DNA of 56,747 bases from Corallococcus carmarthensis (GTDB lineage Bacteria; Myxococcota; Myxococcia; Myxococcales; Myxococcaceae), in contig NZ_RAWE01000045.1 of the NCBI RefSeq assembly GCF_003611695.1, forward strand, positions 1 through 56,747. Direction: 5' to 3'. Below, one piece after another: positions 45,897 through 54,744 of the stretch. The notes beneath the pieces are model-generated. The model searched no databases and was not told where the DNA came from. It saw only the letters and a list, made by a program, of their open reading frames with translations. Both the position numbers and the translations under genes were made by a program. How positions within the stretch are numbered: the stretch's first letter is position 1; every line of letters begins with the position of its first letter.

Positions 45897-47105
45897 ATGA
45901 CCTGGATGAATTGGAGTTCCCGCGCGCTCGGCGCCGCGGCGTTGCTTTGCACTTCCTCGGCCCTTGCCGCGTCGCCGTTCGCGGAAGGGATGGTCTCCAT
46001 CACGTTGGATGACGGCTGGAGCACGCAGTACACGCTGGCGCGGCCGGCGCTCAAGTCGCGGAGCATCCCCGCCACGTACTACCTGGTGACCGATGCCATC
46101 GCCCAGAGTTGGGGCGGCTACATGAGCCTCGCGCAGGTGCAGACGCTCAAGGCGGAGGGCAACGAGATCGCCAGCCACACGCGCACGCACTCGGACCTGA
46201 CCACGCTGACGCCCACGCAGCTGACGTCGGAGCTGCACGACTCGCGCACGTGGCTGCAGACGAACGTGGGGGCGGCGTGCGGCAAGGACTTCGCGTCACC
46301 CTACGGCGCGTACAACGCGACGGTGATGACGGCGTTGAAGCCGGAGTACGCCAGCCACCGCACCATCAACGCGGGGCGCAACTTCAAGGACACGGTCATC
46401 TACGAGCTGCGCGCCAACGACGTGTCGAGCGCGGTGACGGTGGCGCAGGTGAAGGGGTGGATCAACCAGGCCATCGCGGAGAAGAGCTGGCTCATCATCC
46501 TCTTCCACGAGTTCACCAGCGGCACGCCCACGCGGGAGACGCAGTACAAGACGACCAACTTCACGAACATCCTCAACTACGTGCAGTCGACGGGCATCCG
46601 CACCGTGACGGTGGAGCAGGGGCTTGCGTTGACGGATGGCCTCACGGAGCCGCCGCCTTCCGTGGGCACGGTCGTCTACGACGACGCGATGGGCAGTGGC
46701 TTCCAGGACTGGAGCTGGGCGACGCACGACCTGGACCAGGCCGTCACGGTGCACTCCGGGTCCACGGCGGTCAGCTTCGAGCCGGATTACTGGGAGGCGC
46801 TGATGTTCCACCACACGGGCCTGGACCTGTCGCTGTATCAGTCCGTCGACCTCTGGGTGCACGGAGGCACGACGGGTGGGCAGCAGGTGCGACTGGCGCT
46901 CTACAACGGCGGCACGCCGCTGGGCAGCATCAACCTGGCGACGGCGCTGGGACACCCCATCACGGCGGGGACCTGGCAGAAGGTCTCCATTCCGCTGAGC
47001 ACCCTGGGCGCGACGTCCGGCACGGTGGATGACTTCTACGTGATGGACGACTCCGGTTCGGATCAGGGCACGCTGTACGTGGACGACTTCGTGCTCGTGC
47101 CGTAG
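45897..47105 (+). CDS. Secreted polysaccharide deacetylase with C-terminal carbohydrate-binding-like domain
   Basis: This is a NodB-family carbohydrate esterase. The ATG at 45897 gives 402 residues with a signal peptide (ALGAAALLCTSSALAAS). The metal and catalytic motifs are SITLDDGW (first Asp) and IASHTRTHSDLT (His pair). SPYGAYN and IILFHEF are the later family motifs. From about 260 the C-terminus is a beta-sandwich of the kind found in carbohydrate-binding modules (FEPDYWEALMFHHTGLDLS, ending TLYVDDFVLVP). The likely substrate is chitin, peptidoglycan or another N-acetylated glycan. It is divergent from the transporter operon. Confidence 0.9.
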   Translation: MTWMNWSSRALGAAALLCTSSALAASPFAEGMVSITLDDGWSTQYTLARPALKSRSIPATYYLVTDAIAQSWGGYMSLAQVQTLKAEGNEIASHTRTHSDLTTLTPTQLTSELHDSRTWLQTNVGAACGKDFASPYGAYNATVMTALKPEYASHRTINAGRNFKDTVIYELRANDVSSAVTVAQVKGWINQAIAEKSWLIILFHEFTSGTPTRETQYKTTNFTNILNYVQSTGIRTVTVEQGLALTDGLTEPPPSVGTVVYDDAMGSGFQDWSWATHDLDQAVTVHSGSTAVSFEPDYWEALMFHHTGLDLSLYQSVDLWVHGGTTGGQQVRLALYNGGTPLGSINLATALGHPITAGTWQKVSIPLSTLGATSGTVDDFYVMDDSGSDQGTLYVDDFVLVP

Positions 47106-47132
47106 CGGACTGCCTCGGGAGCCGTGACACTG

Positions 47133-47162
47133 GCCAGCCACCTCGCAAGAGAGGTGGCTGGC
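47133..47162. terminator. Bidirectional terminator
   Basis: A perfect 12-bp stem GCCAGCCACCTC/GAGGTGGCTGGC encloses GCAAGA and is followed on the plus strand by TTGTT. It separates the convergent deacetylase and small secreted-protein genes. Confidence 0.8.
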
Positions 47163-47177
47163 TTGTTCATTTGCGCG

Positions 47178-47576
47178 TCAGCCGCCAGCGATGATCGCCG
47201 TACCACACGAGTACGGAGTGCCGCCGGAGCCGTTCTGCCGACAGGCCACGATCTTGAGCTGCGCGCTCTCACGGGTGACGTCCACGTTGTTGCCCTTGTG
47301 CGTGTTGTACCCGGTCCCGACGTAGACGCGCGCGTAGGCCTTCCACGACCCGTCCGCCTGCTTGACCTCGATCCAGCCGACGACGCCCTCGTTGTCGGAG
47401 TCCAGGTCGTACACAGTGTAGATGTCGCCACCGTCGTCGAAGCAGGTCTTGCCCGCGGTGGTGCCCGCGTCCGTCGTGTACGCACAGCCGCTCGCTGCGA
47501 AGGCAGGAGCGCCGGTCAAGCCAACCAGAGCAGCAGCGACCGCGCCCAAAGCCGTACGGATGTACATGCCCTTCAT
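47178..47576 (-). CDS. Small secreted Cys-containing protein
   Basis: The 132-residue precursor has a clear signal peptide (LGAVAAALVGLTGAPAFA, cut near AFA|AS). The mature chain of about 100 residues holds four cysteines (SGCAY, KTCFDD, VACRQ, YSCGT) and looks beta-rich (VGWIEVKQADGSWKAYARVY). A strong AGGAGG precedes the ATG. It is monocistronic, with hairpins on both sides and an AT-rich leader region, suggesting strong or special regulation. No family is recognised. Confidence 0.8.
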   Translation of the reverse strand: MKGMYIRTALGAVAAALVGLTGAPAFAASGCAYTTDAGTTAGKTCFDDGGDIYTVYDLDSDNEGVVGWIEVKQADGSWKAYARVYVGTGYNTHKGNNVDVTRESAQLKIVACRQNGSGGTPYSCGTAIIAGG

Positions 47577-47650
47577 CGTGAGCCTCCTGGTCTTGCGTTG
47601 AGTAGGCGCTGACAGCGGCTGGAGCCCCCCGCGCCCGCAATGACCCTAGA

Positions 47651-47670
47651 GGAAGATTTAATCGTCTTCC
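47651..47670. promoter_or_regulatory. Palindrome in an AT-rich island upstream of the small secreted protein
   Basis: GGAAGA and TCTTCC are separated by TTTAATCG. It lies inside a stretch of about 70 bases that is much richer in A/T than its surroundings, 75-95 bases upstream of the minus-strand gene at 47576. It is probably promoter or operator DNA; no clear -35/-10 pair was found. Confidence 0.35.
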
Positions 47671-47747
47671 ACGAAAATCTGCTTATTCTTGTTTGTGGTT
47701 GGCTATTCATCAATGCGAGGCATTTCGGAGGCGGGTGGGTTGCAATG

Positions 47748-47777
47748 GCGCGCGCCGGTGCCTGCTCCGGCGCGCGC
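47748..47777 (-). terminator. Hairpin at the 3' end of the oxygenase/ATP-grasp/MFS cassette
   Basis: Arms GCGCGCGCCGG and CCGGCGCGCGC enclose TGCCTGCT, 10 bases beyond the MFS stop. It is 29/30 identical to, and in the same orientation as, the hairpin at 52272-52301. There is no T run. Confidence 0.6.
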
Positions 47778-47787
47778 AGGCTGACTC

Positions 47788-48978
47788 CTACCGGGTGGTG
47801 GCGGCGTCGGGAAGCGCGTCCGGAGTGCTGCCGCGCATCGAGCGCGCCGCGACCACGGCCAAAGCCAGGAAGATGAGGATGAGCGCGCGCGGCAAAGCCT
47901 GGGTGCCGAACGCATCCTGTAGCACGCCAATGGCCGACGAACCGGCGACCCCACCGGCGCCGCCCGCCATCGTCATCGCGGCGCTGCAGCTCAGGAGCTG
48001 TGCGCCGGTGAAGCGGTCACCGATGGACGCCAGCGCCACCGTCGTCGTGCCATAGGCACAAGCGCCCCAGACGAACAGGAACAAATACAGCAGCGGCGTC
48101 GACGCGCCGATGACCCACGGCAGAACGCCGCCGCCGACAACGGTGAGCAACGCGCAGCCCATCATCACCGGGCGCCGGCCCCAGCGGTCGGACGCCCAGC
48201 CAATGGGCGGCTGCAACAGCACGTTGCCGACGTTCAGCACGCTGAGGCCGATGCCCATGACCGCGGTGCTCGTGCCATGGACCGCCCCGAACTTGGGCAG
48301 GAACGCCAGGGACGCGTGGTCGAACGCGCCGAACGACGCGGCCGCGAGCAACGCCGCGGGAATCAACGGAACCGCTCCGAGCACCGGTGCGCGCCCCGTG
48401 CCGTGGAAGTCCGGCAGTTGCTTGCTGACGAGCAGCACCCCCAGCGCACACGCGACGAACGCCGCGCCGAGCATCGCGAAGCAATGCGGCGAGCGGAAGT
48501 CCGCCAGCGACACCAGCAGCGGGCCGCACGCGAAGCCCGCCGACAGGAACGACGTGTAGATGCCGAACACCCGGCCGCGGCGCCCCGACGGCGTGAGCTG
48601 CGCGAGCCACGCCTTGTTGACGATGTAGAAGCCGCCCACCGCCAGCCCCCACAGCAGGCGCGCGGCAATCCACAGGAGGGGCTCGGGCACGAGCGCCATC
48701 GACGCCATCGCTGTCAGGCCGAGCATGCAGCTCGCGACGCCGATGCGCACGGCGCCGAACCGCTCGGCCGCCCATGGAATCACGAACGACGAGGCAATCA
48801 GCCCCAGCGGGCTGCACGCCGCGGAGATGCCAATCACGCTGTCGGCGACGCCCTGGCGGGACAGCAACACGCCGAGCAGCACGGGCGTGCCGCCCACCGC
48901 GACGGCGAACATGCCGACCAGGAACGAAATCGTGAAGATGCTCCGCCACGCGGCGGCGTCCGAGGAGGATGGACTCAT
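47788..48978 (-). CDS. MFS transporter, probable exporter
   Basis: This 396-residue integral membrane protein has about 12 helices. Typical MFS features are the loop 2-3 region (IPWAAERFGAVRIG) and the central repeat GWASDRWGRRPVMMG, which holds the D-R-x-G-R-R motif. The N-terminus reads FLVGMFAVAVGGTPVLLGVL. It begins 4 bases after the ATP-grasp stop and is the last gene of the cassette, the usual place for a product exporter or self-resistance pump. Direction of transport is inferred from context. Confidence 0.88.
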   Translation of the reverse strand: MSPSSSDAAAWRSIFTISFLVGMFAVAVGGTPVLLGVLLSRQGVADSVIGISAACSPLGLIASSFVIPWAAERFGAVRIGVASCMLGLTAMASMALVPEPLLWIAARLLWGLAVGGFYIVNKAWLAQLTPSGRRGRVFGIYTSFLSAGFACGPLLVSLADFRSPHCFAMLGAAFVACALGVLLVSKQLPDFHGTGRAPVLGAVPLIPAALLAAASFGAFDHASLAFLPKFGAVHGTSTAVMGIGLSVLNVGNVLLQPPIGWASDRWGRRPVMMGCALLTVVGGGVLPWVIGASTPLLYLFLFVWGACAYGTTTVALASIGDRFTGAQLLSCSAAMTMAGGAGGVAGSSAIGVLQDAFGTQALPRALILIFLALAVVAARSMRGSTPDALPDAATTR

Positions 48979-48982
48979 GGCA

Positions 48983-50395
48983 CTAATGGCGCGCGACCAT
49001 GACCGGCAGCATCGCGCCGCCCTTGTAGAGGCTCATGATGGGGCTCTGGTTGGCGCGCGACAAGAAGCCCACCGCCTTGCCGCCGAAGATGAAGGTGTTG
49101 AGGTCGGCGATCCGCGGCGTGATTTCGCCCGTGGCCGGGTCCGGACAGTGGACGACGTGGCCCTGGATGTACTCCTGGGCGACGAACGCGGAGTTGGACG
49201 CCGCGGCATCCACGGCGCGCTGCCAGTCCGCGTCCTGGACCTTGTTGCCAATCACGATGCCGTCGCCCCACGTGGCGTTGGTCGGCTTGAGCAGGAAGCG
49301 GGTCCGGTGGCGCTTGAGGTAGTCGCACAGGTCCACCTGCTCGCCTTCCATGGAGATGGAGCGCCCGGGTGCCACGACGCGCGTCCACGGCACGTGGCGC
49401 TGGAACATCCGCCGGTCCGCCGGCGAGAAGTGGTCGCCGAACCGCGGGTCGCTCAAGAGCGCGAGAATCGACTTGTCGGCGTAGATCCACTGGCAGGCCA
49501 GCGGGTTCACGCTGACCACGTCGCCAGCGGCCACCGCGCGGAGGTAGTGCTCTGCGTCGGGACACTGGACGAGGTCGCGCAGGTCCCACTTGTTGTAGAC
49601 GAGGTCGATGCGCGTCCCCCGGTGGGTCACGCAGCCCGCGCCGCGCTCAAGCTCGCGCAGGTCGATGAACTCGCAGTGGATGCCGCGCTCGCCGAAACCC
49701 TGGATGATGAGGTCGGTCTCGCTGGTGAAGCGGCCGTTGTAGTTGACGATGCGGACCTCGCTCGGGTCCCGGCCCTTGTCCGCGCGATACGTGTCCAGCA
49801 TCTCCGAGATGAACAGGTTGCGCGTCTCGACGATGGGCTGGGGGACCAGTTCGACGTCGCGGCCCCACGCGGCCAGGATGGGATTGGGCAGCGAGCGCCA
49901 CAGCCGCGTCGCCATCCCGGAGGCGAACAGGTTCGCGGGACAGTCGGTGTTGGTCTCCAGAATCAGATAGCGGCCATCCGGCGCGACCAGGCCGTCGAAG
50001 CGGCAGATGCGCGTGAGCGGCCGGAACGCGGGCGCCGCCAGCAGGAGGTCCCGCACCGGCTCATAGCCGCGATAGAGCTTCCGGACCTCGGCGTCATGGC
50101 GGTACAGCTCGAGCACGTTGTCGAACACGCGGATGAAGCGCTCGCCCGCGGACTTCAGCTGCTCAGCCCAGTCGGCGTCGATGATGGTCGGGCGCAGGCA
50201 CACCGGATACGCGTGATTGGCGTCGAACTGGAGCCCTTTGGCGAGCGCCACGCCGCGCAGCTCGCGTTGCGCCGCCGCGATGTTCTCACGCTCGGCGGCC
50301 GAGGCCTGGGCCAGCAGCACGTCGAGCTCCGCGTCGTACGGACACAGCGCCAGGCCGCCACGGTCTTGCTGAAAGGGACCATTTGCTTTGGACAT
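48983..50395 (-). CDS. ATP-grasp ligase resembling glutathionylspermidine synthase
   Basis: The 470-residue protein has ATP-grasp features in the order seen in glutathionylspermidine-synthase-like ligases. ICRFDGLVAPDG and LILETNTDCPANL match the family (G)RFD and LE(Y/F)NADTP blocks. A later FLLKPTNATWGDGIVIG carries the ATP-binding Lys and flexible loop, followed by VAQEYIQGH. I start at the ATG at 50395, which has GGAG 6 bases upstream; an in-frame ATG at 50407 is possible. ATP-grasp enzymes of this kind make amide bonds through acyl-phosphates. With an oxygenase, a VOC protein and an exporter, amide ligation in a small-molecule pathway is the best guess. Confidence 0.72.
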   Translation of the reverse strand: MSKANGPFQQDRGGLALCPYDAELDVLLAQASAAERENIAAAQRELRGVALAKGLQFDANHAYPVCLRPTIIDADWAEQLKSAGERFIRVFDNVLELYRHDAEVRKLYRGYEPVRDLLLAAPAFRPLTRICRFDGLVAPDGRYLILETNTDCPANLFASGMATRLWRSLPNPILAAWGRDVELVPQPIVETRNLFISEMLDTYRADKGRDPSEVRIVNYNGRFTSETDLIIQGFGERGIHCEFIDLRELERGAGCVTHRGTRIDLVYNKWDLRDLVQCPDAEHYLRAVAAGDVVSVNPLACQWIYADKSILALLSDPRFGDHFSPADRRMFQRHVPWTRVVAPGRSISMEGEQVDLCDYLKRHRTRFLLKPTNATWGDGIVIGNKVQDADWQRAVDAAASNSAFVAQEYIQGHVVHCPDPATGEITPRIADLNTFIFGGKAVGFLSRANQSPIMSLYKGGAMLPVMVARH

Positions 50396-50410
50396 CGCGG
50401 ACTCCATTGT

Positions 50411-51049
50411 TCAAGTCAGGATACGGATCCCGGACGGCGTGCGGATCGTCGCGGTATAGCGGAATGCCTCGCCGTGCGTGACGGCGGGCGCGCCCGAGAC
50501 TCCGAGCGCCTCGTAAAGCCGGGCGATGCGCGCGGTGTCCGGGTGCTCGAGCGTGAACGCCACCAACTCGCAGCCCCGCTGCGTCTCGGGCGCGAGCGTC
50601 GGGCGTTTTCCCTTCCGGTCGATGAGCGACGGCACGACGCCCTGCATGGGCAGTGAGCCGTCCACGGGCACGGAGAAGAAGTAGCTCGACGTCCCGGCGT
50701 GGAACTCGCGCGGCTCCCCGAACACGCCCGGGTGTTGGGCCATCCGCTGGGCGAAGTGATCGGTGCTCGCCACCCAGCCCCGCAGGCGCTTGCCGTCGTC
50801 CCACGCCTTGCGCACCGCCGCGCGGTCGTCGAGCCCGAACCACCTGGGGCCCGGGACGGCCGGCGCCTCCTCGTCGATGGCAATCACTTCGAGATAGGCG
50901 GCCTCACCCAGCTGGAGCAGGTGATTGTGCGTGCCCATGTGGGGGTGCTTGCGGCCGAAGGGGATGTCGATGCCCAGGCACTCTTGGAGGTGAGCGATGC
51001 CTTCGACGAGCGAGGGTGCGATGACGGAGAGATGATCGAGTCGGGGCAT
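50411..51049 (-). CDS. Glyoxalase-like VOC-fold protein
   Basis: The 212-residue protein has the two beta-alpha-beta-beta-beta halves of the vicinal oxygen chelate fold. It starts PRLDHLSVIAPSLVEGIAHL, with metal-ligand-type His in LDHL and HNHLLQLGEAAYLEV, and a second half around CELVAFTLEHPD. The long form resembles the glyoxalase-like_dom family (PF13468-like, from memory). VOC members include dioxygenases, epimerases, lyases and antibiotic-binding resistance proteins. It lies 13 bases after the oxygenase gene and 15 before the ligase, so a role in the same pathway or in self-protection is likely. Confidence 0.78.
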   Translation of the reverse strand: MPRLDHLSVIAPSLVEGIAHLQECLGIDIPFGRKHPHMGTHNHLLQLGEAAYLEVIAIDEEAPAVPGPRWFGLDDRAAVRKAWDDGKRLRGWVASTDHFAQRMAQHPGVFGEPREFHAGTSSYFFSVPVDGSLPMQGVVPSLIDRKGKRPTLAPETQRGCELVAFTLEHPDTARIARLYEALGVSGAPAVTHGEAFRYTATIRTPSGIRILT

Positions 51050-51062
51050 GGCGTCGCCGGGG

Positions 51063-52094
51063 TCAGGCCTTGACCAACATCGGGTCGGTCGACTGGACGA
51101 TGGCGGTGGAGAAGCGGTTGTAGCCGAACAGTCGCACGAGGATCCGCCGGTTGTCCTTGATGATGTCGCGGCAGTGCAGGGCCTTGGTGTTGTTGATGAG
51201 GATGGCCTTGCTGGAGTCCAGGGTCACCTGGAGCCGCTCCGCGTTCGTGATGCCAGCCTGTAGCGCGTCAATGGCACGCCGTGAGTTCTCCGGCACCCCG
51301 TCGCACGCGGAGAAGCGATAGGCGCTGAACCGGAACGCGAAGTCACCGTGGTTGTTGTAGTCCACGATGGAGACATGACGGCCATCCTCGTCGCCGGGCA
51401 CGTAGGAGTTGGGCCGGGTGAACTGATAGTGCTTCCGGGTCAGCGCGTCGACCACCGGCTCGCCGAGTGCCTTCAGCACGGGCGTGATCGGGATGACCTG
51501 GGTCGGCTCCTGGAGCGGATTCCACCGCGCCGTCAGGATCAACGTCGAGGGCGCCGGTGAATGCCGCTCCGTCGCTTGGAACGAGCAGTAGTGCGGCGGC
51601 TCGGTGTGCGCGCCGAGCGCAAGACCGGAGTGTGATGAAACCTCCACGTCCTCGGGCGCGGGCTCCTCGGGAATCTTGTGCTGCCCGCCGCCCTTGAAGT
51701 TGCCGACGAGGCGCACCATTTCGTTGTAGTCCAGATCGTATGCGAAGGCGCGATTGCCAGCGAGGTTCAACAAAAGCTGGCTGCGCGACGCGAGCACCAG
51801 GCAGTCGAGATCCATCTTCAACGCCTCGAGTGAAGGCCGCGCCTCGGGGACGCCATCGCCCACTTCGAGCATGCCCTCGACGACCAGCAGGGTGATGCGA
51901 TTGCTGGCATAGCCATCGACCACGGCGCGCTGCTCGGAGTCCAGCATGTCGCGCAGCACGTGGGCGTGGGCTTCGGCGCGTTCACGAATCCCCGCGCACT
52001 GCGGCCCGCCGGCACGTGCCAGTTGCACGGCGTGGTGATGCAGGGATTCCGCCTGGGAAGGACTCAGCTTCAGGACCGCGACTTCGGTGTGCAT
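51063..52094 (-). CDS. Fe(II)/2-oxoglutarate oxygenase of the clavaminate synthase/AsnO type
   Basis: The predicted product is a non-heme iron oxygenase of 343 residues (ATG at 52094; an ATG at 52133 is also open). The iron ligands are H163-x-E165 in GAHTEPPHY and H307 in NNTKALHCRDI, with a following Arg (NRRILVRLFGYN) for 2-oxoglutarate. The HxE instead of HxD triad is characteristic of clavaminate synthase, VioC and AsnO, which hydroxylate or desaturate amino acids and derivatives. QLLLNLAGNRAFAYD and NDFAF-like DFAFRFSAYRFSA also fit that fold. As first gene of a four-gene minus-strand cassette, it probably oxidises the amino-acid building block. Confidence 0.8.
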   Translation of the reverse strand: MHTEVAVLKLSPSQAESLHHHAVQLARAGGPQCAGIRERAEAHAHVLRDMLDSEQRAVVDGYASNRITLLVVEGMLEVGDGVPEARPSLEALKMDLDCLVLASRSQLLLNLAGNRAFAYDLDYNEMVRLVGNFKGGGQHKIPEEPAPEDVEVSSHSGLALGAHTEPPHYCSFQATERHSPAPSTLILTARWNPLQEPTQVIPITPVLKALGEPVVDALTRKHYQFTRPNSYVPGDEDGRHVSIVDYNNHGDFAFRFSAYRFSACDGVPENSRRAIDALQAGITNAERLQVTLDSSKAILINNTKALHCRDIIKDNRRILVRLFGYNRFSTAIVQSTDPMLVKA

Positions 52095-52182
52095 GCTTGC
52101 GAATTCCCCCTCGGACCTCGCAACCCGAGCCATGGCCGCCCCCGGCCCGGCCTCGAGTTGTGGCGCGCAGATACTACCGCGA

Positions 52183-52198
52183 AGTCCAGTAGTCCAGA
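52183..52198. promoter_or_regulatory. Tandem 8-base repeats upstream of the cassette
   Basis: AGTCCAGT is followed directly by AGTCCAGA, about 90 bases upstream of the oxygenase start. On the minus strand TAGTAT (52171-52176) lies just downstream and could be a -10 box. A regulator site is possible; no regulator gene is linked. Confidence 0.35.
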
Positions 52199-52270
52199 CT
52201 AATCTTGTATTTCTGGCATGGAGAGGGAAGAGAGTTCAGGAAGTCTGGCCGCCATCCGGAGGACTGACGC

Positions 52271-52302
52271 CGCGCGCGCCGGTGCCTGCCCCGGCGCGCG
52301 CG
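52271..52302 (-). terminator. Hairpin after the GH16 gene
   Basis: Arms CGCGCGCGCCGG and CCGGCGCGCGCG (12 bp) enclose TGCCTGCC, 17 bases beyond the GH16 stop. It is nearly identical to the hairpin at 47748-47777, at the other end of the cassette. Confidence 0.6.
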
Positions 52303-52319
52303 TTGAAGACAGCCGGGGC

Positions 52320-53678
52320 CTACAGCTTGATCAGCTCCACGTCATCCATGTGGATGAAGTTGGAGCCGTTGTGGGCGGGCGACTTGCTGTGCAGGCCGAA
52401 CTCCAGATAGCCGTTGGTGACGTTGACGGCTGGCGTCTCCAGCAGCGTGTAGTTGCCGTAGGTGCCCAGGTTGGTGATGGCCGCGGCGCAATCACCGCAG
52501 GTCTTCACCTGGAAGCGCGCGAAGTCGAACGTGCCGCCCTTGCGGAACCAGGCGCGCAGCTTGTAGTTGCCCGACGCCAGGCCCGTCTTCGTCTGGTACG
52601 TCCACGCCTCGTACGCCGCCGCCGACGTCCAGTGCGTCAGGTGGAAGCTGCCCGAGTGCCCGCCGTTGTACGTCTCCGAGAACGCCGCCGCCGCCGTGCC
52701 GTTCGGGCTCCAGGTGTTCCAGCCCGTCATGCCGCTCTCGAAGCCCGCGTTGGTGAGCCCCAGCGACTGCGAGCCGCCCGGCTGGTACCAGCGCACCCAC
52801 TCCACCTCCATCGTCTTCCTGGCGCCAAAGGGCAGGTCGATGGAGGCAGGTGCTGGATTGCCGTACCAGACGCCGCCCAGCGCCAGGTTCAGGATGAGGT
52901 AGTGGTTCTGCTGGAACTCCGTCTCGTTGTGGTTGAACGTCGCCGTGGACACGAAGTCCTTGTCCAGGCGGAACACCATGCTGTTCGCCGTCCACTCCAC
53001 TTCATACGTGTGGAAGTCCTGCGACAGGTCCACGCCGCGGCTCGCGCCCGTGCCCCAGTCCGCGTTGCCGCCGTTGTACCAATGCAGCGCGGACTTCATC
53101 CACGTGGGCTCCGTGGACTTCCACTCCAGGATGTCGATCTCTCCCGCGCCCGGCCAGCCCGCGCTCTGCACGTTCGCGCCCAGCGTCCAGAACGCCGGCC
53201 ACATGCCGTAGCCCGGCGGAATCTTGATGCTCGCCACAATCTTTCCGTAGCGCCCCTCCACCTTGCCCTTGGTGTGGATGCGGCCGGAATAGAACGAGCG
53301 GTAGTTGCCAGGGCAGTGCGAGTCCGTGGGGTTGTCCCCCGTGCGCTCCGCCGTGATGACCAGCTTGCCGTTGCCCACCGTCACGTTCTGCGCGCGCGGG
53401 AACTCCAGCTCACCCGTGCCGAAGTTGCAGTTGTTGAGCAGCGGATCCCAGTTGCTCGTCAGCACGTTCCACGCGCCCGTGTTCAGCGACGTGCCCGTGA
53501 AGTCGTCCTGCCACGACAGGGACCACCCCGCGCCCGGGTCGTACGCGCGCTCGCCCTGCTGCGTCTGGCCGTAGCCTTCCGCCTCCACCGGGGCGGCGGC
53601 TTCCGGCTCCGGTGAACAGCCGGAGAGGGTGGTCAGGAGTCCTGCGGCGACAAGGCCAGCTCGAAAGGGGCGATGCAT
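52320..53678 (-). CDS. GH16 beta-glucanase lipoprotein with C-terminal carbohydrate-binding domain
   Basis: This is a secreted endo-beta-glucanase (laminarinase or lichenase type). The lipoprotein signal ends LSGC (Cys21). The GH16 catalytic motif GEIDILEW carries nucleophile E180, D182 and acid/base E185. WPAFWTLG, AGWPGAG and YEVEWTANSMVFRLD are further family blocks. From about 300 a jelly-roll CBM follows (GFESGMTGWNTWSPNG, ending FIHMDDVELIKL). The 452 residues fit. The start codon and ribosome site lie in a perfect hairpin (53678-53706). The role may be prey or fungal wall digestion, which is inference. Confidence 0.93.
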   Translation of the reverse strand: MHRPFRAGLVAAGLLTTLSGCSPEPEAAAPVEAEGYGQTQQGERAYDPGAGWSLSWQDDFTGTSLNTGAWNVLTSNWDPLLNNCNFGTGELEFPRAQNVTVGNGKLVITAERTGDNPTDSHCPGNYRSFYSGRIHTKGKVEGRYGKIVASIKIPPGYGMWPAFWTLGANVQSAGWPGAGEIDILEWKSTEPTWMKSALHWYNGGNADWGTGASRGVDLSQDFHTYEVEWTANSMVFRLDKDFVSTATFNHNETEFQQNHYLILNLALGGVWYGNPAPASIDLPFGARKTMEVEWVRWYQPGGSQSLGLTNAGFESGMTGWNTWSPNGTAAAAFSETYNGGHSGSFHLTHWTSAAAYEAWTYQTKTGLASGNYKLRAWFRKGGTFDFARFQVKTCGDCAAAITNLGTYGNYTLLETPAVNVTNGYLEFGLHSKSPAHNGSNFIHMDDVELIKL

Positions 53679-53706
53679 GAATGCTCCGGGGAAGGGGGAG
53701 CATTCA
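53678..53706 (-). promoter_or_regulatory. Hairpin that hides the GH16 ribosome site and start
   Basis: On the transcript UGAAUGCUCC pairs perfectly with GGAGCAUUCA over 10 bp, with a CCCUUCCCC loop. The Shine-Dalgarno GGAG (53687-53684) and the A of the AUG (53678) are inside the stem. Opening this stem should be needed for translation. Confidence 0.65.
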
Positions 53707-53751
53707 TATTTGCCGGTTTTGACGCGGCTTGCCAGGAAGTCACGAAGCGGC

Positions 53752-54744
53752 TCAGCCGAGCCACTGGGGATTCTGGACGGTCCCGTCGAAGTGGTGGCTC
53801 GTCTTGTACTTCTCGAAGGCGCCGTCCCTGGCCGCGTCCTTCGTCCTGGCGAGCAGGGCCTGCACTTCCTTCTCGCTCAGGGGCTTGAAGGTGCGCGCGG
53901 CGGTGAGGGCCTGCTGCAGGCGCTCCTGCGAGTCGATGCCGGTGATGACGACGCTGACGGGCAGGGACAGGTTGTAGCGGAGGCATTCCGGCGCGGTGAC
54001 GGTCTTGCTGTCGAGGATGAACGGGTCGCCCATGCACTTCATGGCGAGCACGCCGATGCCCTCCTTCACGAGCACGGGCAGCACGCGCTTCTCGAAGCTG
54101 TTGAAGTGGGCGTCCATCACGTTGAGGGGCAGCTGCACGGTGTCGAAGCGGAAGCCGTGCTTCTTCGCCGTCTCCAGCATCTTCAGGTGGATGTCCGGGG
54201 ACTTGTGGCCGGTGAAGCCCAGGAAGCGCGCCTTGCCGGCCTTCTGCGCGTCCTTCATGGCTTCGATGGCGCCGCCTTCGGCGAAGGCTCGGTCCGGATC
54301 ATTGTCGCGGATGACCTCGTGGAGCTGGAGCAGGTCCAGGTGGTCCGTCTGGAGGCGCTGGAGGGATTCGTCGATCTGCTTCGCGGCGGTCTTCTTGTCG
54401 CGGCCGTCGATCTTCGTCATCAGGAAGGCCTTGGCGCGGTAGCCGTCGCGCAGCGCCTTGCCCATGCGCTCCTCGCTCTTGCCGTCGTTGTAGTCCCAGC
54501 AGTTGTCCAGGAAGTTGATGCCCTGGTCCAACGCGCCCCGGATGAGCGCGAGGCTCTCCGACTCGTCCTTCTGCTTCCCGATGTGGAAGCCCCCGAGTCC
54601 CACGCACGACACCTCCTGGCCGGTGCGGCCCAGCTTGCGGCGGGGCACGGTGGGGGCGTTCTTCGCCTTCGCGGGCGGAGCACCGAACACGGTCGGGGCG
54701 GCCATCAACGACAGCGTCGCGGCGAGGAATTCCTTCCGGGTCAT
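53752..54744 (-). CDS. Aldo/keto reductase, possibly exported
   Basis: This NADPH-type oxidoreductase has a TIM barrel. The ATG at 54744 gives 330 residues. The N-terminus MTRKEFLAATLSLMAAP resembles a Tat signal with an Arg-Lys pair, which would make it an exported member. The reductase body starts RRKLGRTGQEVSCVGLG. The catalytic set is NCWDYNDGKSEERMGKAL (Asp, Tyr), MTKIDGRDK (Lys) and DLLQLHEV (His). It lies 73 bases upstream of the GH16 gene on the same strand and is divergent from the solute-binding protein. Substrate unknown. Confidence 0.9.
   Translation of the reverse strand: MTRKEFLAATLSLMAAPTVFGAPPAKAKNAPTVPRRKLGRTGQEVSCVGLGGFHIGKQKDESESLALIRGALDQGINFLDNCWDYNDGKSEERMGKALRDGYRAKAFLMTKIDGRDKKTAAKQIDESLQRLQTDHLDLLQLHEVIRDNDPDRAFAEGGAIEAMKDAQKAGKARFLGFTGHKSPDIHLKMLETAKKHGFRFDTVQLPLNVMDAHFNSFEKRVLPVLVKEGIGVLAMKCMGDPFILDSKTVTAPECLRYNLSLPVSVVITGIDSQERLQQALTAARTFKPLSEKEVQALLARTKDAARDGAFEKYKTSHHFDGTVQNPQWLG

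Follow-up and report, generated by a model that had tools for sequence, protein, structure and literature searches.

The 56,747-nucleotide stretch of contig NZ_RAWE01000045.1 analysed here (hereafter the window), from the soil predator Corallococcus carmarthensis, contains four consecutive minus-strand open reading frames (ORFs) for a candidate Fe(II)/2-oxoglutarate (2OG) oxygenase, a protein of the vicinal oxygen chelate (VOC) superfamily, a predicted ATP-grasp ligase, and a transporter of the major facilitator superfamily (MFS), which raises the question of whether so small a cassette may suffice to make and export a natural product without a non-ribosomal peptide synthetase (NRPS). The interpretation we favor, with a probability of roughly 55%, is a self-contained mobile NRPS-independent cassette for amino-acid oxidation, amide ligation, and export, resembling the Fe/2OG plus ATP-grasp part of E-64 biosynthesis. 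An earlier reading of the DNA, based on the sequence alone and here called the sequence-only reading, had described four adjacent minus-strand genes at 47788-52094, separated by 4-15 bases. Their adjacency and the left end hold, while position 52094 turned out to be an internal ATG of the oxygenase frame, which begins at 52133, and the actual gaps measure 13, 3, and 4 nt, leaving no space for any further gene inside the cassette. The GC content at third codon positions is 0.85-0.92 in the four genes.

Table 1. Positions of the cassette genes and associated features in the window.
Feature	Position	Strand	Size or remark
Fe(II)/2OG oxygenase, HxE type, distantly AsnO/VioC/OrfP-like	51063..52133	-	356 aa
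VOC-superfamily protein (Pfam Glyoxalase_3)	50411..51049	-	212 aa
ATP-grasp acid-amine ligase (predicted), GSS/GspS/YgiC/Cp1B fold	48983..50407	-	474 aa
MFS transporter (MFS_1), inferred exporter	47788..48978	-	396 aa
DNA identity block shared with the cassette of MAG PMG_225	47792..52141		86.4% identical, 4,351 bp, co-terminal with the cassette
Left hairpin copy	47748..47777		30 bp, terminator-type, brackets the cassette
Right hairpin copy	52272..52301		30 bp, 29/30 identical to the left copy
Small ORF with signal-peptide-like start (by eye)	47178..47576	-	132 aa, same insertion, outside the cassette

All four genes occur together in one other genome, the metagenome-assembled genome (MAG) PMG_225 (G026), at a different locus. 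Comparison of the window with 20 kb of this MAG (L035) reveals a single common block, which is the cassette, and the encoded proteins are 85% (oxygenase), 78% (VOC), 88% (ligase), and 89% (MFS) identical, with ratios of nonsynonymous to synonymous substitution rates of 0.16, 0.22, 0.18, and 0.19, respectively. The four genes are therefore real and under purifying selection, which also confirms the four ORFs of the sequence-only reading, apart from the oxygenase start. Their neighbors differ: genes for a polysaccharide deacetylase and a GH16 protein flank the cassette in the window, and the MAG has a DUF885 gene and others there, at a site that is also variable among its relatives. Nothing argues more strongly for a shared function than that exactly these four genes form the common block in two species, at different sites and under purifying selection.

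Among 96 genomes of the family, close orthologs of the oxygenase, the ligase, and the VOC protein are found each time in the same two, those of the window and the MAG; the MFS protein was compared between these two carriers only. Two further genomes showed oxygenase matches, one at 28% identity and one partial (L034 in G041, 41% over 76 amino acids), the latter being dismissed as chance since the match lies in an ORF on the strand opposite to the one picked at that locus, and a search of 195 genomes of the phylum, including these 96, yielded no additional genome. Ligase matches are present in 76 of the 96 genomes, 74 of them distant (22-34% identity). These distant myxobacterial homologs were considered as members of the same system and rejected: no relatives of the oxygenase, VOC, or MFS proteins were detected at 1e-2 in loci of 2.7-4.3 kb from 23 of the 74 genomes (the other 51 were left out), two of which were also searched over 19-20 kb around the ligase homolog (L037, L038), and the seven such paralogs placed in a tree lie outside the ligase clade. 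The sole oxygenase match of that search lies in L036, a locus which had been retrieved for that very reason. As regards the linkage of the four genes in other genomes, which the sequence-only reading had named as a check, the close orthologs are linked in the only other genome found to have them, and more distant oxygenase and ligase relatives occur apart.

The cassette is mobile. It represents an insertion between two convergent genes, those for the deacetylase and the GH16 protein, and is bracketed by a duplicated 30-bp hairpin of terminator type (Table 1), whose 22-base core matches exactly twice in the 10.8-Mb genome, at the two bracketing copies; no such hairpin repeat arose in 100 shuffles of the window. 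Both flanking genes are present in 16 of 16 genomes of the genus. Apart from the window's own genome, the site is empty in 13 of 15, among them the MAG, with a spacing of 56-73 bp that contains a single GC-rich hairpin as judged by eye. The hairpin looks like a bidirectional terminator, and its duplication in the window suggests that the cassette entered at this apparent terminator and either duplicated it or brought a copy along. No transposase or integrase is encoded among the four genes filling the space between the repeats, and no such hairpins were found in the 20 kb read around the MAG copy. On the deacetylase side, the left hairpin is preceded by an additional 0.64 kb that contains the small ORF and may stem from a different insertion event; DNA homologs of this ORF are located elsewhere in G022 (81%) and G025 (77%). 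The convergent gene pair (47106-52319 in the window; L062-L076) constitutes an insertion hotspot with different cargo in three genomes: besides the window, G021 contains 1.8 kb of unrelated inserted DNA enclosed by two hairpins, with a 304-aa ORF lacking a Pfam match, and G025 a different 1.2-kb insert with a 388-aa ORF carrying an eCIS_core domain.

The oxygenase gives no Pfam match at E ≤ 1, a weak NCBIfam match to VioC (E 0.0076), and none in direct searches of the PDB, whether used alone or together with its MAG ortholog. Its assignment runs through L036, an oxygenase relative of 26-28% identity in the family genome G032, which adjoins an EamA transporter gene and matches AsnO (E 1.4e-19), CmnC, lysine hydroxylase, VioC, and clavaminate synthase. 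A profile of four close oxygenase orthologs aligns to L036 in hhalign with a probability of 97 (E 1e-11), versus 11 for a Photorhabdus TauD protein, and a three-sequence profile including L036 reaches AsnO (5e-7) and OrfP (1e-6). All four orthologs retain H176-T-E178, H320, R330, and R334, and these residues align with the HxD...H...R residues of L036, which agrees with the previous call of an HxE-type enzyme and makes H176, E178, and H320 putative Fe ligands and R330/R334 the putative 2OG-binding arginines. As judged from these alignments, the oxygenase appears to belong to the AsnO/VioC/OrfP HxE group as a distant branch; it lacks the YDGTD insert ahead of the 2OG arginine and carries an extra NFKGGG segment. 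Relatives of 42-47% identity are found in Pseudomonas fluorescens HKI0874 and a Photorhabdus, and no oxygenase was found in the plasmids searched.

The ligase, which had been called similar to glutathionylspermidine synthetase, shows only sub-threshold Pfam matches (CP_ATPgrasp_2, GSP_synth) and a best E value of 0.095 when its profile is compared with the PDB by sequence, and becomes clear by its predicted fold. A three-domain ATP-grasp fold spans the whole chain of the AlphaFold2 model from 15 homologs (mean predicted local distance difference test score, pLDDT, 80.9), which matches 3kal in Foldseek (E 1.7e-16) and aligns in VIA with YjfC (Z 27.2), YgiC (26.9), hGSS (26.0), GspS (25.3), and Cp1B (23.3). 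Among the first 16 matches, acid-amine ligases align across 351-420 residues with Z values of 23-27. In contrast to the glutathione synthetases (GSS) and GspS, which match the whole chain, RimK aligns over just 214 residues (Z 9). The model thus places the ligase among ATP-grasp enzymes with the predicted fold of glutathione synthetase, glutathionylspermidine synthetase, YgiC/YjfC, and Cp1B. R136, D138, E151, N153, K374, N377, A378, T379, and G381 are invariant in the 15 homologs and may correspond to the RxD...ExN metal site and the Lys plus Gly-rich ATP loop of GSS and GspS; the residue alignment to PDB enzymes is weak and restricted to partial stretches. Sequence identity is 12-16% to the five named enzymes and 11-16% to the best-matching solved structures overall, and 94 of the 96 family genomes lack a close ortholog, supporting the view that the ligase is not a close homolog of any characterized housekeeping enzyme; a housekeeping ligase was what the sequence-only reading had named as a refutation. 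In a tree of 22 sequences, the window ligase groups, along with its MAG ortholog, with 13 homologs from Pseudomonadota (support 100/99 for these 15), and seven myxobacterial paralogs fall outside this clade, with long-branch warnings. This grouping suggests that the ligase may have been acquired by transfer.

With two strict peptide patterns, which may have missed further loci, a ligase-profile scan of genome contigs identified at least 14: those of the MAG and of P. fluorescens HKI0874, three from Photorhabdus, and nine from rhizobia. A conserved cluster is present in all five gammaproteobacterial loci read, which come from a Pantoea plasmid, HKI0874, and the three Photorhabdus (L027, L040, L047, L048, L049; a second Pantoea record, H1, was left out). 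It comprises genes for a class-III aminotransferase, the ligase, ThiF, a TauD/TfdA oxygenase, GNAT, ATP-grasp, PurD-like, and MFS proteins, and an amidase, plus a CapA-like gene in four of the five, as called from the annotation of L027, Pfam scans of L047 and one L040 gene, and BLAST clustering for the others. An iron-containing redox domain was detected by Pfam in L047 and L040. In two of the Photorhabdus loci, L047 (7787-11311) and L048 (7892-11311), a haem-oxygenase-like redox domain, the class-III aminotransferase, and the ligase lie in one frame of 1174 and 1139 aa, respectively (Pfam scan on L047 only), possibly representing a fusion, and a 912-aa frame in L040 contains the ligase plus its preceding part. 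No description of this multi-ATP-grasp cluster was found in the open-licence PMC literature, nor any paper that mentions both P. fluorescens and HKI0874; Pantaphos and PNP-1 were considered and set aside, as the portions of the literature available on them concern other clusters.

For the rhizobial neighborhoods, ten neighbors at six loci, including the plasmid locus L029, and four more proteins were scanned (L046, L050, L051, and L028 were left out). In Mesorhizobium WSM3860 (L043, 7461-11353), genes for a class-III aminotransferase and a WelO5-like Fe/2OG enzyme precede the ligase homolog, and in L044 a WelO5-like gene is located 6.5 kb away from it. The homolog of Bradyrhizobium canariense (L042, 8967-13122) comes right after an autoinducer-synthase-like gene and ahead of an AMP-binding one, and that of S. 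fredii GR64 (L029) adjoins an ATP-grasp gene of the L-amino-acid-ligase type (LAL), with an MFS_3 gene two genes on. L052 contains an aminotransferase gene 7 kb from the ligase homolog, and the neighbors in L041 and L045 are not telling.

The previous calls of a glyoxalase-like protein and an MFS transporter are corroborated by Pfam (Glyoxalase_3, 9e-29; MFS_1, 7e-30). In the VOC protein, D5, H6, H35, E54, and H169 are among the residues common to six aligned homologs, consistent with a metal site. VOC matches occur in five of the 96 family genomes (the two close ones and three at 38-48%, one of these partial) and in seven plasmid records, and an MFS gene lies near the VOC relative in one of the two plasmid regions read. 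VOC folds serve as FosA and bleomycin-binding self-resistance proteins.

The simplest pathway using all four genes consists of amino-acid oxidation, ADP-forming amide ligation, and export. By analogy with its family, the oxygenase would bind Fe(II) via H176, E178, and H320 and 2-oxoglutarate via R330 and R334 and oxidize a free L-amino acid or an acid resembling one, most likely by hydroxylation at C-beta or C-gamma. According to its predicted fold, the ligase would then convert a carboxylate to an acyl phosphate, releasing ADP, and join it to an amine or a second amino acid. The VOC protein might, as a guess, rearrange the product, or bind or detoxify it as self-protection, and the MFS protein would export it. 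The product is probably an exported modified amino acid or dipeptide. In favor of this pathway count the common block in the two carriers, the predicted ligase fold, the clusters that join ligase relatives with other iron oxygenases, ATP-grasp, and MFS genes, and E-64 as a precedent. The pathway proposed in the sequence-only reading is partly supported by these data; the natural product, its substrates, and the export are conjectures based on the gene families.

Several observations weigh against this interpretation. Only two carriers of the cassette are known, one of them a MAG. The AlphaFold2 model of the oxygenase, built from two sequences, reaches a pLDDT of 33, so that the fold assignment depends on the sequence bridge via L036, and the link to AsnO and OrfP is transitive, because the profile of the four close orthologs without L036 reaches only OrfP, at E 0.048. 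A strict co-dependence of the four genes is weakened by solitary oxygenase relatives and by ligase genomes without the oxygenase. In HKI0874 and the Photorhabdus, the oxygenase relatives stand alone at a distance from the ligase cluster, the TauD/TfdA and MFS proteins of that cluster are not close relatives of those in the window, and the ligase is the only one of the four window proteins that found matches at 1e-3 in the ligase loci outside the MAG. Among 13 non-myxobacterial ligase genomes searched as a whole, the oxygenase is absent from nine of nine rhizobial and two of four gammaproteobacterial ones, leaving two positives, both gammaproteobacterial. A class-wide sample of 369 genomes, spread over the class and possibly containing few Photorhabdus or Pseudomonas, yielded one oxygenase relative, in HKI0874 itself; set beside this, the two of four gammaproteobacterial ligase genomes with an oxygenase relative speak in favor of the pathway, but this co-occurrence of oxygenase and ligase is only suggestive, as a count uncorrected for phylogeny. 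VOC relatives are found in varied contexts: the two plasmid regions read, whose gene tables are incomplete, show no annotated ligase less than 5 kb away, and in G045 about 22 kb separate the VOC homolog from the ligase homolog, which are hence not adjacent; in G081 and G082 the two lie on different, short contigs. Finally, membership in the MFS family does not fix the direction of transport.

Of the other explanations, the formation of an E-64-like warhead, in which a small acid would be epoxidized or desaturated by the oxygenase (which might instead act on the dipeptide after ligation) and joined to an amino acid by the ligase, with the VOC protein conferring self-resistance, appears unlikely. 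The predicted ligase structure does match Cp1B (Z 23.3), and E-64 formation requires an Fe/2OG enzyme and an ATP-grasp ligase, with related bacterial mfa clusters reported in the accessible part of the source (PMC12568646). However, YjfC, YgiC, and hGSS outscore Cp1B, the nearest relatives of the oxygenase are the free-amino-acid hydroxylases AsnO, OrfP, and CmnC, and the cassette lacks an ANL amide synthetase gene. We are equally doubtful of a detoxification or resistance island, which, instead of making a toxin, would inactivate a foreign one by oxidation, ligation, or sequestration and pump it out. VOC and MFS proteins are common resistance folds, and the cassette is sporadic and mobile, with unrelated cargo inserting at the same site; yet the gammaproteobacterial members of the ligase clade reside in multi-enzyme clusters of biosynthetic type, and PADLOC gave no match for the cassette at 0.01, with a library of anti-phage systems that excludes toxin resistance.

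A housekeeping conjugation of polyamines or glutathione-type compounds, as expected for YgiC-, YjfC-, or GspS-like enzymes, would fit with YjfC and YgiC as top structural matches (Z 27), but is highly improbable in view of the low identity to these enzymes, the restriction of close ligase orthologs to two of the 96 family genomes, and the presence of the same oxygenase, VOC, and MFS proteins beside the ligase in both carriers. A bolder version of the cassette pathway would define a new class of minimal mobile cassettes, in which an HxE oxygenase of a new subfamily, together with a ligase of GSS fold, would yield a reactive product, either a modified amino acid or a pseudodipeptide, with VOC-based immunity and a dedicated MFS exporter, spreading as cargo that inserts at terminator hairpins; we regard this as speculative and rather unlikely in its entirety. 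A graspetide-type ribosomally synthesized and post-translationally modified peptide was also considered and rejected, as the predicted ligase fold matches GSS and GspS over the whole chain and RimK over part of it, and the 3-13 nt gaps are too small for a precursor gene within the cassette; no search for one encoded elsewhere was made.

Among the 32 ORFs picked in the window, which covers a small fraction of the genome, 22 were scanned against Pfam, including every one above 450 aa. The absence of NRPS and polyketide synthase genes, as claimed previously, holds for the cassette and, at the thresholds used, for these 22 ORFs; the ten unscanned ones are all below 450 aa. The large proteins of the window are PA14, FG-GAP/RHS/amidase, alpha-2-macroglobulin, RNase R-type, and penicillin-binding proteins. 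Rfam returned nothing in 46500-53800 at gathering scores, a promoter scan found none and is uninformative, and a viral contig search gave no match.

ATP-grasp pathways without an NRPS give rise to compact, bioactive derivatives of amino acids, and genome mining probably overlooks them easily. The four-gene unit, 4.3 kb long and intact at two different genomic sites, offers an unusually small, testable expression target, and its ligase clade leads to the multi-ATP-grasp cluster conserved among Photorhabdus, Pseudomonas, and Pantoea.

No description of the cassette itself was found in the open-licence PMC literature, and it is best viewed beside the closest known systems. As for its single enzymes, the oxygenase shares with AsnO, VioC, OrfP, and CmnC (2og5, 2wbo, 4m23, 7vgl) the HxE...H...R arrangement, a length of about 350 aa, and a C-terminal N-x-x-LH-x-R core, but differs in lacking a direct phmmer match, in addition to the insert and segment mentioned above. 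The predicted fold of the ligase corresponds over its whole length to YgiC, YjfC, GspS, and eukaryotic glutathione synthetases (Z 20-27), whereas the enzyme is sporadic and cassette-borne, unlike these distant counterparts. Mangotoxin is a peptide that an ATP-grasp cluster makes without an NRPS, and its mbo system, as far as described in the available part of the source (PMC13185094), likewise appears to make a small peptide via ATP-grasp ligases and a non-haem iron oxidase, but with an HDO di-iron oxidase and two ATP-grasp ligases. For E-64, the minimum three-gene cassette given in the available part of PMC12568646 combines an Fe/2OG enzyme with an ATP-grasp ligase and an ANL amide synthetase. 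Like E-64/cp1 and the bacterial mfa clusters as presented there, the window cassette is small and NRPS-free and combines an Fe/2OG oxygenase with a stand-alone ATP-grasp ligase, which has the same predicted superfamily fold as Cp1B (9cjn). It differs in the mere 13% identity of the ligase to Cp1B, in an oxygenase that seems nearer to the AsnO/OrfP subgroup than a Cp1A-type fumarate epoxidase would be, and in the cassettes of both carriers containing a VOC and an MFS protein instead of the ANL amide bond synthetase Cp1D.

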